A stretch of DNA of 48,636 nt from an uncultured Sutterella sp. Lineage in GTDB: Bacteria; Pseudomonadota; Gammaproteobacteria; Burkholderiales; Burkholderiaceae_F. Made by a program: the position numbers and the translations under genes. The notes beneath the pieces are model-generated. The model saw only the letters and a program-made list of their open reading frames with translations, made no database searches and had not been told where the DNA came from. The first letter of the stretch is position 1, and every line of letters begins with the position of its first letter. The stretch covers positions 1 to 48,636 of the forward strand of contig OMXR01000017.1 in assembly GCA_900315045.1 (NCBI GenBank), given 5' to 3'. Shown piece after piece: positions 40,482 through 46,656 of the stretch.

Positions 40482-40934
40482 TTACTGAGCCGGAACCTGG
40501 CGCCAGCCGGTCGGGCAGGAGCGGACGTCCGGATAGTAGCCGCGGGGTTCATCGCACCAGTAGACGTAGCGGACAACCTGCGAGCCCTGGGACTGGTAGA
40601 GCGTTGCGGGATCCTGCTGGTACGTGTAGTTGCTCGACGAGTTGGAAGAGCGCGCGAGCTCAGCCAGGCCGAACAGAATGGCGCCAGCGGCCACACCCGC
40701 CGCAACCGCATTGCGCGTGCTGTGGCGGCTGTGATGATGATGGTCGTCGCGGCGCGGCGGCGGTGCGCTCCTATGCTGCGGTGCGCGGTGACCGGACGAG
40801 TGGTGGGAACTGTGCGGTGCATGGGCGCCGGGGCCGCCGTGCCCCTTTGGCGGAGGAGCGGCAAAGGAGGCACTTGCCAGAGCAAGCGACGCAACAGCCG
40901 CAATCGCAAGAACCGAACGGGAAAGAGTTGACAT
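40482..40934 (-). CDS. Secreted His-rich protein with WCD-PRGYYP C-terminal motif, paralogue 3
   Basis: A 150-residue protein with a signal peptide (MSTLSRSVLAIAAVASLALASASFA). A His/Pro/Gly-rich region follows (HGGPGAHAPHSSHHSSGHRAP, then RRDDHHHHSRH). Then come a hydrophobic stretch (NAVAAGVAAGAILFGLAELA) that could be a membrane or packing segment, and the C-terminal motif VYWCDEPRGYYPDVRSCPTGWRQVPAQ, which has two cysteines. The motif is shared with the next two genes. The function is unknown; metal binding through the histidines is an inference. The start at 40934 is chosen for the signal peptide. Confidence 0.72.
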   Translation of the reverse strand: MSTLSRSVLAIAAVASLALASASFAAPPPKGHGGPGAHAPHSSHHSSGHRAPQHRSAPPPRRDDHHHHSRHSTRNAVAAGVAAGAILFGLAELARSSNSSSNYTYQQDPATLYQSQGSQVVRYVYWCDEPRGYYPDVRSCPTGWRQVPAQ

Positions 40935-41006
40935 CGACAAACTCCTAAAAAACGAAGTCCCAGACGGAGCAGCAATCACCGCACTCCGTCCGGGGCAAAC
41001 TGTCAC

Positions 41007-41306
41007 TTAATAGCGGCGCGGATGCGCAGGGATCCGATGCCAGCCGGTCCGGCAGTGGCGAACGTCCGGATAGTAGCCTCTCGGATGGTCACACCAGTTC
41101 ACAAAGCGCTGCTGAGGCGGCCGGTGATGCGCATGCGGCGGGGGCGGCGGCTTGTGGTAGCGGGGCGGCGGCGCATGGTGGTGATGCGCTGCAGGCGGCG
41201 CTGCATGCGGATGATGATGCGGACCGGGCTGGGCCATCGCGGACGTTGAGAACGCCAAAATTGCGGAAGCAGCCAAGGCGATCATAGAGGGAATGTGCAA
41301 CTTCAT
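41007..41306 (-). CDS. Secreted His/Pro-rich small protein, paralogue 2
   Basis: A 99-residue protein with a signal peptide (MKLHIPSMIALAASAILAFSTSAMAQ), a 45-residue region made almost entirely of His, Pro, Ala and aromatic residues (HHHPHAAPPAAHHHH, PPPRYHKPPPPPHAHHRPPQQ), and the C-terminal motif NWCDHPRGYYPDVRHCRTGWHRIPAHP. The tail is more compact than in paralogue 3. Nothing identifies the function. It lies 72 bp from paralogue 3 and 30 bp from paralogue 1 on the same strand. Confidence 0.75.
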   Translation of the reverse strand: MKLHIPSMIALAASAILAFSTSAMAQPGPHHHPHAAPPAAHHHHAPPPRYHKPPPPPHAHHRPPQQRFVNWCDHPRGYYPDVRHCRTGWHRIPAHPRRY

Positions 41307-41336
41307 AATGTGCCCTCCGGGGGAAAAACATTCAAG

Positions 41337-41657
41337 TCAATAATAGCGGCGCGGAGGCGGTGGAGGACCACGGCGGACCGGGACGCGATGCCAGCCGCTC
41401 GGGCAATGGCGGACAGCCGGGTAATAGCCTCTCGGATAGTCGCACCAGCTCCTATACCTTGGAGGAGGCGGGGGTGGCGGACGGTGATAGTGCCGGGGCG
41501 GTGGCGGCGGCCTGTGATAGCGCGGAGGCGGCGGTGGCGGCCTATGATAGCGCGGAGGCGGAGCATAGTATCCCGGCTGGGCGAGTGCTGCTGGCGCCGA
41601 GAGCCCCATGAACAGCGCGGCGATGATGGCGAAAAGCGATGCAATGAACCTCTTCAT
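41337..41657 (-). CDS. Secreted His/Pro-rich small protein, paralogue 1
   Basis: A 106-residue protein with a signal peptide (MKRFIASLFAIIAALFMGLSAPAALAQ). A proline-rich repeat of the form PPPPRYHRPPPPP follows, and then the motif SWCDYPRGYYPAVRHCPSGWHRVPVRR with a Pro-rich tail. It is the promoter-proximal gene of the three. The ribosome binding site is AAGAGG, 7 bases ahead of the start. The upstream region (41660-41760) is AT-rich with several TATA-like hexamers, so a promoter is likely there. Confidence 0.75.
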   Translation of the reverse strand: MKRFIASLFAIIAALFMGLSAPAALAQPGYYAPPPRYHRPPPPPPRYHRPPPPPRHYHRPPPPPPPRYRSWCDYPRGYYPAVRHCPSGWHRVPVRRGPPPPPRRYY

Positions 41658-41873: not shown

Positions 41874-43052
41874 TTACAGGCCTGCGTCGGCGCGAAGCAG
41901 TCTTGCCTTGTCAGTCTTTTCCCAAGTGAATTCGGGCTCTTCACGGCCGAAGTGGCCGTAGGCGGCGGTCTTGGAGTAGATTGGCCGGCGCAAGTCGAGC
42001 ATCTGGATGATGCCGCCCGGACGCAGATCGAAGTGTGCGCGGACAAGCTCGGCGATCTTCTCGTCGGCGATCAGGCCGGTGCCGTTGGTCCGGACCGTGA
42101 TGTTGGTGGGCTCGGCAACGCCGATTGCATACGCCACCTGAACCTGGCATTCGCGGGCAAGACCTGCGGCGACCACGTTCTTGGCGACATAGCGGCAGGC
42201 ATAGGCAGCCGAGCGGTCAACCTTGGTGGGATCCTTTCCTGAGAATGCGCCGCCGCCGTGCGGGCAGGAGCCGCCATAGGTGTCGACGATGATCTTGCGG
42301 CCGGTGAGGCCGCAGTCGCCCTGCGGGCCGCCGACGACAAACCGGCCCGTCGGGTTCACGAGGAACTTGGTATTTTCCAGCCATTCGGCGGGCATCACGG
42401 GGCGGATGATGTTTTCGATGACGGCCTCGACGAATTCGGGCTTCATGTTCCTGCCGTCGGACCACTCGGGCGCATGCTGGCTCGAAAGCACGATCGTGTC
42501 GGCAGCCACGGGACGGCCGTCCACGTAGCGCAGCGTCACCTGGCTCTTTGCGTCCGGACGCAGATAGGGCATGACGCCGTTGCGGCGCACGATGGACTGC
42601 TGCTCGACGAGACGGTGCGCGTAGTAGATGGCGGCGGGCATGAGCGTCGGCGTCTCATCGCAGGCGTAGCCGAACATCAGACCCTGGTCGCCCGCGCCCT
42701 GGGTGAGGGGATCGTTGTCCTTTTCATCCACGCCCTGGGCAATGTCGCCGGACTGCTTGTCGTAGCAGATGTGCACCGAGCAGCCCCGGTGATCGATGCC
42801 GTATTCGGAGTTGTCGTACCCGATGCGTTTCAGCACATCGCGGGTGATGCCGATGTAGTCGACGTTGGCATTCGTCGTGATTTCGCCTGCCAGCACGACA
42901 AGTCCCGTCGTGCAGAGCGTCTCGGCCGCCACGCGGCTCAGGGGGTCCTGCTCGAGGCAGGCGTCCAGAACGGCATCGGAGATTTGATCGGCCACCTTGT
43001 CGGGATGACCTTCACTCACGGATTCGGAGGTAAAAAGAAAATCGCTGGCCAT
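41874..43052 (-). CDS. metK: MetK, S-adenosylmethionine synthetase
   Basis: MetK makes S-adenosylmethionine from methionine and ATP. The 392-residue protein has [38 protein letters not shown] and [19 protein letters not shown], the three family signatures. The start is decided by the ribosome binding site: AAGGAG at 43065-43060 is only 1 base from the ATG at 43058 but 7 bases from the ATG at 43052, so the protein begins MASDFLF. A folded leader lies upstream (43087-43145). Confidence 0.97.
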
Positions 43053-43086
43053 TGCCATGCTCCTTACAAAGTGCGCCAAAAGCGCC

Positions 43087-43145
43087 ATACCGCGGAGCGA
43101 TGGATTGGATCCAGCGACATCATGAGTGCGACGCTTTAGCGGTAT
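43087..43145 (-). other. Folded region in the metK leader
   Basis: ATACCGC (plus-strand 43087-43093) and GCGGTAT (43139-43145) form a 7-bp stem that closes 45 nt. Inside is a second stem TGGAT-TGG-ATCCA (43101-43113). It ends 34 nt before the metK start. I could not match it to a SAM- or SAH-riboswitch consensus. Confidence 0.4.
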
Positions 43146-43271
43146 TTATTCAGTTCGCCCCGCAAGTTGTCTTCTTAACTCGGCGAATGTGGGCGTCATC
43201 ATACGCCAAAAAACTGAACTCGGACTGAAGAGTCCTTGCCAGGCGCCGCGGCTGGGCGGTCTGGGGAATTC

Positions 43272-44075
43272 CTACGGGCTGTTCATGTAGCGGCGCCCGA
43301 CGACGAAATTCACCAGGGAAACGGGCAGGAGTCTCTGAAGAATGCAGACGGCTTTGTTTGCAAAACCGATGGCATAAAGAGGCTTGACCGTCTTTTTCAG
43401 CGCGATGTCCGCGATCAGGCGGGCAGCTGTCTGGACGGGCATTCCGTTCCGCTCATCCCGTTCCATCCTGCCGACGCTTTTGCCGATGATGCCTGAATAC
43501 ACGTCATCGCCGACAGGAGATTTCTCTCTGTTTCGGGTGAAGGATGTCGCAATGTCGCCTGGCTGAATCGCGCATACCGAGATATTGAATGCCTTAAGTT
43601 CGTTGGCTAGCGCACAGGTGTAGGAGTTCATTGCAGCCTTGCTTGCGCTGTAAAAGGCTTGGAACGGAATCGGTATGACGGCCGCGAGAGAGGAGATGTT
43701 CACGATCCGGCCCGAGCGCCTTTCCCTCATATGGCGGATGACAGCCCTGTTGACATTCACCATGCCGAAGAAATTGACGTCGAACTGCTTTTTGGCTTCG
43801 GCGCTTTCGGTAAATTCAACCGCGCCGGAAATGCCGAAACCGGCGCAGTTGATGACAAGATCGATCCGACCGTGCTCGTTCACGATTTTGTCAACGGCCT
43901 GCGTGACGCTTTTTTCATCCGTCACATCGACCCTCATATGGGTCGCAAGCCCCGACCCGGCCGCATCGCTCCTGCTGAACTCGTAAACCCTGAACCCTCT
44001 GGATGAAAGAATGCGGACTGTCTCCTTTCCGATGCCGGAAGAACCGCCGGTCACGAGACAGACCCGTTCGTTCAT
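43272..44075 (-). CDS. Short-chain dehydrogenase/reductase, candidate 3-ketosphinganine reductase
   Basis: A classical SDR of 267 residues: cofactor motif TGGSSGIG (residues 9-16), NCAGFG (76-81), the catalytic Ser in NISSLA and Tyr142/Lys146 in FYSASKAAM. The start at 44075 (MNERVCLVTGG) overlaps the stop of the serine palmitoyltransferase-like gene by 4 bp, so the two are translationally coupled. The position suggests it reduces the ketone product of that enzyme, but SDR specificity cannot be read from sequence. Its C-terminal 40 residues (VCILQRLLPVSLVNFVVGRRYMNSP) are hydrophobic and suggest membrane contact. Confidence 0.72.
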   Translation of the reverse strand: MNERVCLVTGGSSGIGKETVRILSSRGFRVYEFSRSDAAGSGLATHMRVDVTDEKSVTQAVDKIVNEHGRIDLVINCAGFGISGAVEFTESAEAKKQFDVNFFGMVNVNRAVIRHMRERRSGRIVNISSLAAVIPIPFQAFYSASKAAMNSYTCALANELKAFNISVCAIQPGDIATSFTRNREKSPVGDDVYSGIIGKSVGRMERDERNGMPVQTAARLIADIALKKTVKPLYAIGFANKAVCILQRLLPVSLVNFVVGRRYMNSP

Positions 44076-45259
44076 ACGCCGTGCTCCTTGAGTACCTCGT
44101 GGATGATGCCGACTGCCTCGTCGATGAGCTGGTGCGTGTGGGTCGACATCAGGCTGATGCGCAGCAGACACTCGCCAGGAGCGACGGCGGGCGGCAGCGA
44201 GCAATTGACAAAGACCCCCTTCTCATAAAGTTCTTTTGTGATGGTGAGAGTCTTAACCATATCGTAGGTGTAGATGGGAATGATCGGCACCTGATCGCCG
44301 CTCGATTCGCGCATCTTGATGCCGTATTCTCTGAGCTTCTGGCGCATGTATCTGGAATTGTCCTGAAGCGTCTGCACGAGCTGGGGATTGTTTTCCAGGA
44401 TCTCGAGCGACTTGATGGCCGATGCACAGCTTGCCGGGGTCATGGACGCCGAGAAGATAAACGGACGCGACGTATGCTTGACATAGTCGATGACCCTTTC
44501 GTCCGCCGCAATATATCCGCCCAGAGACGCAAGCGACTTGGAAAGCGTTCCCATGTAAATGTCCACTTTGTCTTCAAGTCCGAAGTACGATGCGGTTCCC
44601 CGGCCTCCCTTGCCCAGCACGCCAAGGCCGTGCGCATCATCAACCATGACTCGCGCACCGTATTTCTCCGCCAGCGCACAGATCTCCGGAAGATTCGCAA
44701 TATCGCCTCCCATGGAGAAAACCCCGTCCGTGACGATGAGGCTGCCGCAGTCTTCGGGCACTTTCTGGAGTTGGTTTTCAAGATCGGCCATGTCGTTGTG
44801 GCGGTACCTGAGCATCGTTCCGTACGAAAGCCTGCAGCCGTCATAGAGCGAAGCGTGATTTTCCTTGTCCATGATCACGTAATCGCGCTTGGTGACCATG
44901 GCGCTGATCAGTCCGAGATTCGACTGGAAACCCGTTGAGAAAGTCATTGCCGCCTGCTTGCCCAGGAACTTTGCAATTTTCTCTTCGAATTCAAGATGGA
45001 GTTTGAGTGTGCCGTTCAGGAAGCGCGACCCGGAGCACCCGGAGCCGTATTCCTTGTAGGCCTTGATGCCGGCTTCAATCACATCGTCGTTGATGGTGAG
45101 GCCGAGATAGTTGTTGGAGCCAAGCATGATCCTGCGCTTGCCTTCCATCGTAACAACCGTATCCTGCCTCGACTCAAGTGCATGAAAATAAGGATAAATG
45201 TTCATTGCCCTGGCCATGTCAGCCCGGGATTCCTTAAAGCACTTTGCAAAAATATCCAT
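44072..45259 (-). CDS. Alpha-oxoamine synthase of serine palmitoyltransferase type
   Basis: A PLP enzyme that condenses an acyl-CoA with an amino acid. The 395 residues follow the Bacteroides serine palmitoyltransferase pattern more closely than KBL or BioF. They show IYPYFHALES, GSGCSGSRFLNGTLKLHLE, HASLYDGCRLSYG, RHNDMADLENQLQK, VTDGVFSMGGDIANLPEI, VDDAHGLGVLGKGGRG, the PLP lysine Lys241 (GTLSKSLASLGGYI), and RISLMSTHTHQLIDEAV. His135 would stack on PLP. The product would be 3-ketosphinganine if serine and palmitoyl-CoA are the substrates. Cysteate or alanine as the amino donor are alternatives. The downstream gene is a reductase. Confidence 0.78.
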   Translation of the reverse strand: MDIFAKCFKESRADMARAMNIYPYFHALESRQDTVVTMEGKRRIMLGSNNYLGLTINDDVIEAGIKAYKEYGSGCSGSRFLNGTLKLHLEFEEKIAKFLGKQAAMTFSTGFQSNLGLISAMVTKRDYVIMDKENHASLYDGCRLSYGTMLRYRHNDMADLENQLQKVPEDCGSLIVTDGVFSMGGDIANLPEICALAEKYGARVMVDDAHGLGVLGKGGRGTASYFGLEDKVDIYMGTLSKSLASLGGYIAADERVIDYVKHTSRPFIFSASMTPASCASAIKSLEILENNPQLVQTLQDNSRYMRQKLREYGIKMRESSGDQVPIIPIYTYDMVKTLTITKELYEKGVFVNCSLPPAVAPGECLLRISLMSTHTHQLIDEAVGIIHEVLKEHGV

Positions 45260-45654
45260 TCGTCATTCCTTCCAATTAAGACGATAGCAAGCAAAAACCA
45301 CCGCCTGCGGCAGGCATTGAATCCGCCCCTCCCTCTGAATGTCATGGAGATGCAGGGAAAGATTCGCCTTCCGAGCGCTTTGTCGCTTCTCGACATGGCG
45401 TTTGCACACTATCGCATCATGCCGATTCTACAGGAAAAGCCTGTCAAGTCTCAGGGTTTGCCCCATGACTGCATGGTTGATGCGCAAGGATTTCTGTATC
45501 TTGACATTCGATGTATTCTCCCTCAGCCTCAAGATTCAGGGCAGCTTCGCCGAGCAGGTAACATATGGCTAGGAGATTGCGGTCCGATTTTGTTCCTGTG
45601 CGTCAGGAGCCGCAAAAGAATAATCCGAGATCATAGCTCGAGGTGTCTGAAGAG
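45260..45654. other. Intergenic region between the palmitoyltransferase-like gene and mutY
   Basis: About 395 bp between divergent genes without a supported gene. It contains a short hairpin (GCCTG-CGG-CAGGC at 45303-45315) in the untranslated leader of the palmitoyltransferase-like gene. Several TTGACA-like hexamers are present without well-placed -10 partners. Base composition is lower in GC than in the flanking genes. The open frames here have no ribosome binding site or recognisable content. Confidence 0.6.
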
Positions 45655-46656
45655 ATGGGAGAGGAAGAAAAGCAGGAATTTGCCGAGCGCCTTGTCGCAT
45701 GGCAGATCAGATTTGGCCGGCACGGCCTGCCCTGGATGACCGAAGATCCCTACCGCAGGTGGCTTTCCGAAGTCATGCTGCAGCAGACGCAGGTGAGCGT
45801 TGTGGTGGAGTACTTCGAGCGGTTCCTGAAGGTCTTTCCCAGCGTTCAGGCGCTCAGTGCGGCTAGCGAAGAGGATGTGATGCGGCTTTGGGCTGGGCTG
45901 GGCTACTACTCGCGGGCAAGAAACCTGCATGCTTGTGCGAAACGGGTGGTGGCTGAGCACGCAGGCGCCTTTCCTCGCTCGGTCGAACAGCTTGAACGGC
46001 TTCCGGGAATAGGACGCAGCACGGCAGGAGCCATTGCGAGTTTTTGCTTTCAGATTCCTGCGCCGATCCTTGACGGGAACGTGAGGCGCGTCTTTGCGCG
46101 TCTTGTCTGTCTGCCCGAGCCGGTGGACAGCGCAAAAGCTGTAAAAATGCTCTGGGCGATGGCTGAAGAGTGTGTCTCCCGCAGGGAGCCTGGCATCTAC
46201 AACCAGGCTCTGATGGATCTGGGGGCGATGGTCTGCACGAGATCCAGTCCGCACTGCGAGAGATGCCCCGTCAGAAGCTTCTGCAAGGCTCATGAGCAGG
46301 GGCAGACGGACCGTTATCCCGTTCCCAAGGTGAAAAAGCCGCTGCCGCTTATCGAGCGCAGCATGATCCTGTACAGGGTTGGGGACAGGGTGCTTCTCGT
46401 GCACCGCGAGGGGAAAGGAGTCTGGCGCGGCCTCTGGAGCCTGCCGGAGGCGGACGAGATTCCTCCGAACGCACAGATGGTCGGAGAGTTCAGTCACCGG
46501 TTCACGCACTACGCGCTCCATGCGCGGGTGTTCTCGGTTCCGGTCGGCCGGAGGACGGCGCCGGAAATTCCTGACGGCCGGTGGGTCAGCCGTCAGGAGA
46601 TGCAGACCGAGGCGATTCCTACGCCCGTGCGCCGGTTTCTGCTCCCGCTGGGCTAG
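45655..46656 (+). CDS. mutY: MutY, adenine DNA glycosylase
   Basis: MutY removes adenine opposite 8-oxoguanine. The protein (333 residues from ATG 45655) has the catalytic glutamate in SEVMLQQTQ and the helix-hairpin-helix LPGIGRSTAGAIASF. The catalytic aspartate is in ILDGNVRRVFARL, and the 4Fe-4S motif C-x6-C-x2-C-x5-C is CTRSSPHCERCPVRSFC. A Nudix-like C-terminal domain recognises 8-oxoguanine. An in-frame GTG at 45643 is a possible alternative start; GAGG at 45640 favours the ATG. Its TAG and the rapZ stop share the bases CTAG. Confidence 0.95.
   Translation: MGEEEKQEFAERLVAWQIRFGRHGLPWMTEDPYRRWLSEVMLQQTQVSVVVEYFERFLKVFPSVQALSAASEEDVMRLWAGLGYYSRARNLHACAKRVVAEHAGAFPRSVEQLERLPGIGRSTAGAIASFCFQIPAPILDGNVRRVFARLVCLPEPVDSAKAVKMLWAMAEECVSRREPGIYNQALMDLGAMVCTRSSPHCERCPVRSFCKAHEQGQTDRYPVPKVKKPLPLIERSMILYRVGDRVLLVHREGKGVWRGLWSLPEADEIPPNAQMVGEFSHRFTHYALHARVFSVPVGRRTAPEIPDGRWVSRQEMQTEAIPTPVRRFLLPLG

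Follow-up and report, generated by a model that had tools for sequence, protein, structure and literature searches.

Described counterparts of the locus considered here are known from the Bacteroidota. The serine palmitoyltransferase (SPT) BT_0870 has been named in Bacteroides (PMC10865984), and for BT_0972, a 3-ketodihydrosphingosine reductase (KDSR), PMC9278070 names a Gly-rich motif for NADPH together with catalytic Ser, Tyr and Lys. In the same paper, BtSPT and BT_0972 were expressed in E. coli and assayed by LC-MS for 3-ketosphinganine and sphinganine. SPT-like genes have been reported from many phyla, 40 in the account given by PMC11334938, the main text of which mentions neither Firmicutes nor Bacillota, and bacterial sphingolipids of the gut are, according to PMC12816596, usually credited to Bacteroides and Prevotella. 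The Caulobacter-type pathway (Spt-bCerS-CerR) also starts with an Spt, but there acylation takes place before reduction by the epimerase-like CerR (PMC11087976), whereas the window described below holds a KdsR-type reductase and no ceramide synthase was found with the profiles applied to its host genome. SPT, KDSR and their order are already known and, given that NCBIfam already includes a betaproteobacterial SPT model, finding an SPT in this class is in itself no novelty. No report of a Clostridia-type coupled pair, or of its presence in this host, was found in the open literature (one open library).

The window, which is the whole stretch of 48,636 nucleotides analysed here, originates from an uncultured Sutterella sp. 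and contains the following features around the pair:

43272..44075, minus strand: short-chain dehydrogenase/reductase (SDR), 267 aa; best profile KdsR, SDR motifs
44072..45259, minus strand: SPT-like alpha-oxoamine synthase, 395 aa, ATG start; ORF, profile, PDB match, residues
44072..44075, minus strand: shared ATGA of 4 bases, made up of the SPT stop TGA (44074-44072) and the SDR start ATG (44075-44073)
43216..43235, minus strand: terminator-like hairpin, 37 bases 3' of the SDR stop; consensus match only
43089..45642, no strand: metK-mutY interval holding the SPT-SDR pair
41874-43088, minus strand: metK; profile match above cut-off
45643-46656, plus strand: mutY; profile match above cut-off

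The four-base overlap of the two genes, already pointed out in a preliminary description of this DNA, was confirmed as the shared ATGA, and such an overlap suggests translational coupling of SPT and SDR. The SDR start was set at ATG 44075 (MNERV...), in preference to the longest ORF, which reaches 44204 from an upstream TTG, given that the KdsR profile match starts at residue 2 of the shorter version. Terminator-like sites in the region number 8 vs 2.8 in shuffles, and the promoter scan of the region returned one site against 1.3 expected, which is chance level. The chromosomal flanks of the pair (trpS, metK, mutY, rapZ) are conserved, and a search around the pair for flanking repeats of a mobile element returned none. 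In the plasmid collection trpS is best matched by Pseudomonas sequences at 56-60%, consistent with a host from the Pseudomonadota. A defence role for the pair was also considered and was rejected, PADLOC giving no match.

Among curated profiles, the synthase is best matched by the Bacteroidota-type SPT model NF047600 (SerpalmtaseCFB) with 537.3 bits, which lies below the curated cut-off of 640. Two Clostridia relatives are likewise below this cut-off (526 and 531 bits), and a Paraprevotella protein scores 676. Given its score, we file the synthase as an SPT-like enzyme of a sister clade and not as a member of the CFB equivalog. The best match in a PDB search was the SPT of Sphingobacterium multivorum (SmSPT, 3A2B; 427 bits, E 3.6e-127, query residues 15-392), with lower scores for Sphingomonas-type SPTs (279-297 bits), Kbl (up to 262 bits) and CFAT 28EH (232 bits). 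Segments quoted in the preliminary description as Bacteroides-like have their counterparts in SmSPT as GTGCAGSRFLNGTL, HNNMEDL and LMATHT. All ten of the positions checked (N49, H135, D207, D208, H210, K241, S242, A244, A271 and R367) carry the same residue in SmSPT. The PLP-site set comprises D207, H210 and the catalytic K241 along with the stacking histidine H135 and with N49 and R367, which serve the carboxylate, while S242, A244 and A271 are of the SPT type. The synthase thus resembles the Bacteroidota-type SPTs (SmSPT 3A2B/8GUH, BT_0870, NF047600) in its full-length alignment, its ten checked residues and its best profile, but differs from them in its identity of 49-55% to seven such loci, its score below the model cut-off, its separate clade and its directly adjacent SDR.

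The SDR is best matched by NF049977 KdsR (3-ketodihydrosphingosine reductase; 244.6 bits, residues 2-261), the next profile scoring 209. The curated cut-off of this model is 400, and a Clostridia relative (L048) scores 226.7. The protein contains TGGSSGIG at 9, NISS at 126 and YSASK at 142, corresponding to the Gly-X3-Gly-X-Gly and Ser-Tyr-Lys motifs that are common to many SDRs. BT_0972 is likened to it through its NADPH and catalytic motifs (PMC9278070); the window SDR is distinguished from the BT_0972/NF049977 type by its score of 245 vs the cut-off of 400 and by its position directly behind an SPT. These comparisons support the view that the SDR is 3-ketosphinganine-reductase-like. The earlier proposal of an SPT-like synthase joined to a short-chain reductase is therefore borne out by profiles, residues and overlap.

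A scan of the collection with search patterns built from the query, which favour close relatives, gave 264 relatives, and the best 80 were kept. Most of these 80 (69) are Bacillota with 59-78% identity to the synthase; they belong to Lachnospiraceae, Oscillospiraceae and further Clostridia, the majority being of rumen or gut origin, and almost every Clostridia locus comes from a record titled MAG or uncultured. Seven are Bacteroidota (49-55% identity), and the remaining four comprise a pair from Kiritimatiellae and single loci from Brachyspira and Nitrospirae. An SDR gene lies directly behind the SPT gene in 58 of the 80 best relatives (57 of the 69 Bacillota and one Kiritimatiellae), which places the pairing beyond chance; 11 of the 12 Bacillota loci without an adjacent SDR gave no SDR match and one stops at a contig edge. 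In 47 of the 58 paired relatives the SPT stop and the closest start of an SDR overlap, by exactly four bases in 21, and the SDRs of the Clostridia-type pairs are up to 65% identical to that of the window. Clostridia-type SPT-KDSR pairs from gut and rumen MAGs (L031-L098, L107) hence share with the window the same genes, the same order and often the same overlap, and an SDR adjoins the SPT in none of the seven Bacteroidota loci. A search for a third cassette gene within 7 kb of the 80 loci returned, as the largest neighbour family, an ABC ATPase present at 11 loci at scattered offsets, so that no conserved third gene emerged.

Phylogenetic analysis of the synthase began with a tree of 90 rows, in which the smallest starred set with the window contained 21 rows (99/93) and two rows (L003 and L004) had branch lengths of 4 and 2.5, being probably wrong-strand translations. 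A careful tree of 70 rows left out L003, L004, L012, L013 and L030 as well as 15 SPT rows that were near-duplicates, partial or long-branch (L043, L044, L047, L048, L063, L069, L075, L080, L081, L082, L087, L092, L093, L100 and L105); its bootstrap stayed short of full convergence (0.988). In this tree the window is grouped within 18 rows, the other 17 of which are all Bacillota (99/92), and a Clostridia-type clade of 57 rows, one of them from Kiritimatiellae, includes the window in addition (97/93). Eight Bacteroidota rows including SmSPT fall apart from this clade, which appears to be the sister group of the Bacteroidota SPTs. Grouping of the window with the Bacteroidota was rejected by the AU test (p 0.00107), whereas in the careful tree a placement outside the Clostridia-type clade was not rejected (delta lnL 22.75, p 0.155), and a quick tree of 71 rows preferred that outside placement by 14.19 lnL (AU p 0.709). 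The SDR tree, computed without an outgroup, places the window inside a 27-row starred set (95/85). Given that the Bacteroidota grouping was rejected and the outside placement was not, kinship with the Clostridia-type SPTs is firm on these alignments, nesting inside their clade is favoured but not proven, and we infer the direction of transfer. The term Bacteroides-style used in the preliminary description therefore holds for the SPT-like nature of the enzyme and fails for its origin: direct descent from Bacteroidota is rejected by the AU test, and the relatives in Bacillota are closer (59-78% vs 49-55%).

GC content is no proof of transfer, given that not only SPT (0.542) and SDR (0.555) but also ptsN (0.561) lie below the window value of 0.602 and that 17 Clostridia SPT genes span 0.493-0.634. 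Regarding possible vehicles, tblastn against plasmids at E up to 1e-80 returned nine plasmid records, all with less than 60% identity; distant blastn returned 18 plasmid records, in all of which coverage of the pair stayed below 80%; and 127 stretches matched in a viral contig collection, none encoding a relative. Carriage of the pair by a plasmid or phage is rejected on these searches. A Priestia megaterium plasmid (L139, NZ_CP137804.1) carries an SPT-like synthase (47%) that adjoins acyltransferase and methyltransferase genes, with no SDR annotated alongside. A Bacteroides finegoldii record labelled as plasmid (L140, NZ_OY725929.1) has its SPT beside aspS, lon and tgt and looks chromosomal.

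We contend that the pair is probably a coupled long-chain-base cassette from the gene pool of gut Clostridia that makes sphinganine-type bases, with N-acylation absent or performed by an unrecognised enzyme. This reading builds on the family, the residues, the coupling, the conserved pairing and the relationship of the pair set out above. SPT and KDSR chemistry is established and provides the basis for the substrates and products that we infer for both enzymes. The synthase would condense L-serine with a fatty acyl thioester in a PLP-dependent, decarboxylating reaction to give 3-ketosphinganine, the ketone of which would be reduced by the SDR with NADPH to yield sphinganine, although the serine and acyl specificity of the synthase is beyond what sequence alone can give. 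Given that no recognisable ceramide synthase was detected in the host, free sphinganine or a non-N-acylated derivative would be the expected product, unless an unrecognised acyltransferase completes ceramide; that the pathway stops at sphinganine is less certain. A precedent for stopping before ceramide is the gammaproteobacterium Pseudomonas fluorescens MYb115 with its free sphinganines and phosphoglycerol derivatives, which, however, depend on SgaAB, a polyketide synthase and an alpha-oxoamine synthase, and not on an SPT-KDSR pair (PMC12134224). Against the cassette reading count the scores of both proteins below the curated cut-offs (537/640 and 245/400), the failure to find a characterised member of the Clostridia-type clade, and the AU result that leaves room for the window outside that clade. 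If the cassette works, some Clostridia, along with one or more lineages of proteobacteria, become candidate sources of gut sphingolipids, and surveys that count Bacteroides spt genes alone would miss the pair. The SPT-SDR pair is small enough to travel together, and a host limited to the first two steps would allow one to ask what role unacylated long-chain bases have for the bacterium or its host.

A complete ceramide pathway, in which the host possesses a ceramide synthase (CerS) unlike the profile used and makes Bacteroides-like dihydroceramide-based lipids, is unlikely but deserves to be weighed in full. The SPT-KDSR order corresponds to the eukaryote-like route of Bacteroides (PMC9278070), and the GNAT superfamily is large enough for convergent enzymes to be possible. 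The profile in question has three rows, taken from loci in which a 378-aa GNAT gene follows SPT and precedes an epimerase-like reductase (L102, L103) or in which the order is epimerase, SPT, GNAT (L109); the CerS identity comes from these neighbourhoods. NCBIfam has no model that names this GNAT, and Pfam gives the GNAT domain only. By analogy with the bcerS and cerR genes described (PMC11087976), the GNAT beside SPT at the three loci fits a presumed CerS; ceramide synthases that have been characterised include BF9343_4218 of Bacteroides and CCNA_01212 of Caulobacter. All three Bacteroidota control genomes match the profile (one match with two in-frame TAA), as do seven of nine SPT-bearing Clostridia genomes (G456-G459 and G461-G463, with misses in G460 and G464), the nine having been picked from the 69 loci mostly for their long contigs. 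The host genome carrying the pair (G000; 161 contigs, 96% complete, 2.84% contamination) and its congener G001 gave no match to the three-row profile, which sets the host apart from most of the Clostridia-type genomes and argues against a complete pathway, as far as a three-row profile of presumed CerS identity and a fragmented, 96% complete assembly can show. PF04339 was absent from all six genus genomes searched, including G000, a weak test given that the control Bacteroides ihuae was also negative. The preliminary description had suggested looking for a ceramide synthase at other sites of the genome; in G000 this came back empty with both the profile and PF04339.

In the family to which G458 belongs, 200 genomes were covered: the GNAT (1e-30) was detected in eight, SPT (1e-95) in three and both in two, an association with a Fisher p of 0.004, which rises to 0.069 once the centre genome is left out. 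This association is not exclusive, given that six of the 197 SPT-negative genomes of that family carry the GNAT (G503, G508, G519, G539, G573 and G584), and in these the CerS-like protein may have another role too. Gut and rumen Clostridia with SPT(-KDSR) (L031-L098, L107) and a CerS-like GNAT elsewhere are possible unrecognised sphingolipid makers. It can be speculated, with less than even confidence, that gut Clostridia are largely unrecognised producers of sphingolipids equipped with a coupled SPT-KDSR cassette and a ceramide synthase, and that only the cassette passed to the proteobacterium, where it would yield unacylated sphingoid bases, free or headgroup-bearing.

A synthase with a preference for alanine or some further amino acid, or for a different acyl chain, would make the pair a producer of 1-deoxysphingolipids or other amino-alcohols, with the SDR reducing the aminoketone. 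Spt can take alanine in place of serine according to PMC11334938, and the sub-cut-off scores of both proteins in the curated equivalog models leave room for such a shift; the identity with SmSPT at ten of ten checked active-site residues and the lead of 146 bits of the SPT profile over the next family make it rather improbable.

The distribution of the synthase in the host lineage supports the long-chain-base cassette as an acquired trait and bears on the contig itself. A genus search at 1e-20 gave matches in three of ten genomes: G000, G001, where a 105-aa fragment (gene start) at a contig edge is 92% identical, and G007, where the match is 31% identical and BioF-like by profile. NF047600 at 1e-100 was found in one of 67 family genomes, the G001 fragment being too short to count, and the synthase protein at 1e-95 in one of 399 order genomes. 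At 1e-60, 28 of 101 relatives of the host matched, with 33-41% identity apart from G000 and G001. This rarity in family and order, together with the placement in the Clostridia-type clade, supports transfer into the host, as had been suggested beforehand. Between G000 and G001, the SPT fragment (315 bases) shows dN 0.037 and dS 0.57, compared with dN 0.007 and dS 0.85 for metK, values that indicate purifying selection and an acquisition no younger than a common ancestor of the two genomes would require. The SPT position differs between the two genomes: metK-mutM-mutY-rapZ lie on one G001 contig, and SPT lies on another, next to a nuclease, a Sel1 protein, a flavodoxin and a pepT-like gene.

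A Clostridia fragment misjoined into a proteobacterial contig would be conceivable in an assembly as fragmented and slightly contaminated as G000, but host-type genes on both sides of the pair (metK, mutY, rapZ), the start of the same gene in G001 and the 73% match in G000 of the pepT-like gene on that G001 contig make such an artefact very improbable.

The metK-mutY interval is variable across the genus (L113, L123, L124, L130), containing mutM, a formate/nitrite transporter or the SPT-SDR pair. The mutM gene lies between metK and mutY in G001, G007 and G008 and adjoins mutY in G003; at 1e-10 it gave no match in G000 or G002, and in G002 the interval is filled by the formate/nitrite transporter.

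Capnine-type sulfonolipid synthesis with cysteate as substrate, an alternative raised in the preliminary description, is disfavoured to the point of being highly improbable. SulA and CFAT share superfamily and fold with the synthase, and CFAT 28EH matches at 232 bits, which is nevertheless 195 bits below SmSPT. Ala versus a conserved Lys at SulA position 281 separates SPT from sulfonolipid enzymes (PMC9304779), and the synthase carries A271 at this position, as do 79 of 80 relatives with Ala, the other having Thr.

A Kbl or BioF, that is, an enzyme of threonine breakdown or of biotin metabolism next to an SDR with no relation to it, scarcely deserves consideration: the Kbl and BioF profiles, which match any alpha-oxoamine synthase strongly, score 391 bits (cut-off 460) and 382 bits (cut-off 426) and rank behind the SPT profile at 537, true Kbl rows from the order reach 640-658 with Kbl and 310-326 with SPT, and six Burkholderiales Kbl/BioF-like rows (three typed as Kbl by profile) have A in place of S242, G in place of A244 and N or T in place of A271. 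Moving the window across a branch to the side of Kbl was also disfavoured (delta lnL 14.59, AU p 0.0198), a weak test that moving the root can satisfy. The betaproteobacterial and alphaproteobacterial SPT models gave 389 and 336 bits, and the CqsA-type model for alpha-hydroxyketone autoinducers (NF005526) gave 216 bits against a cut-off of 428. The comparison with Kbl, BioF and CqsA proposed earlier thus sets the synthase apart, and on profiles and residues these three are rejected as its identity, as is cysteate synthase.

Elsewhere in the window, three small adjacent ORFs on the minus strand (40482-41006, 41007-41306 and 41337-41657, within 40482-41657) have signal-like starts and the common ending WC..PRGYYP.V..C..GW.
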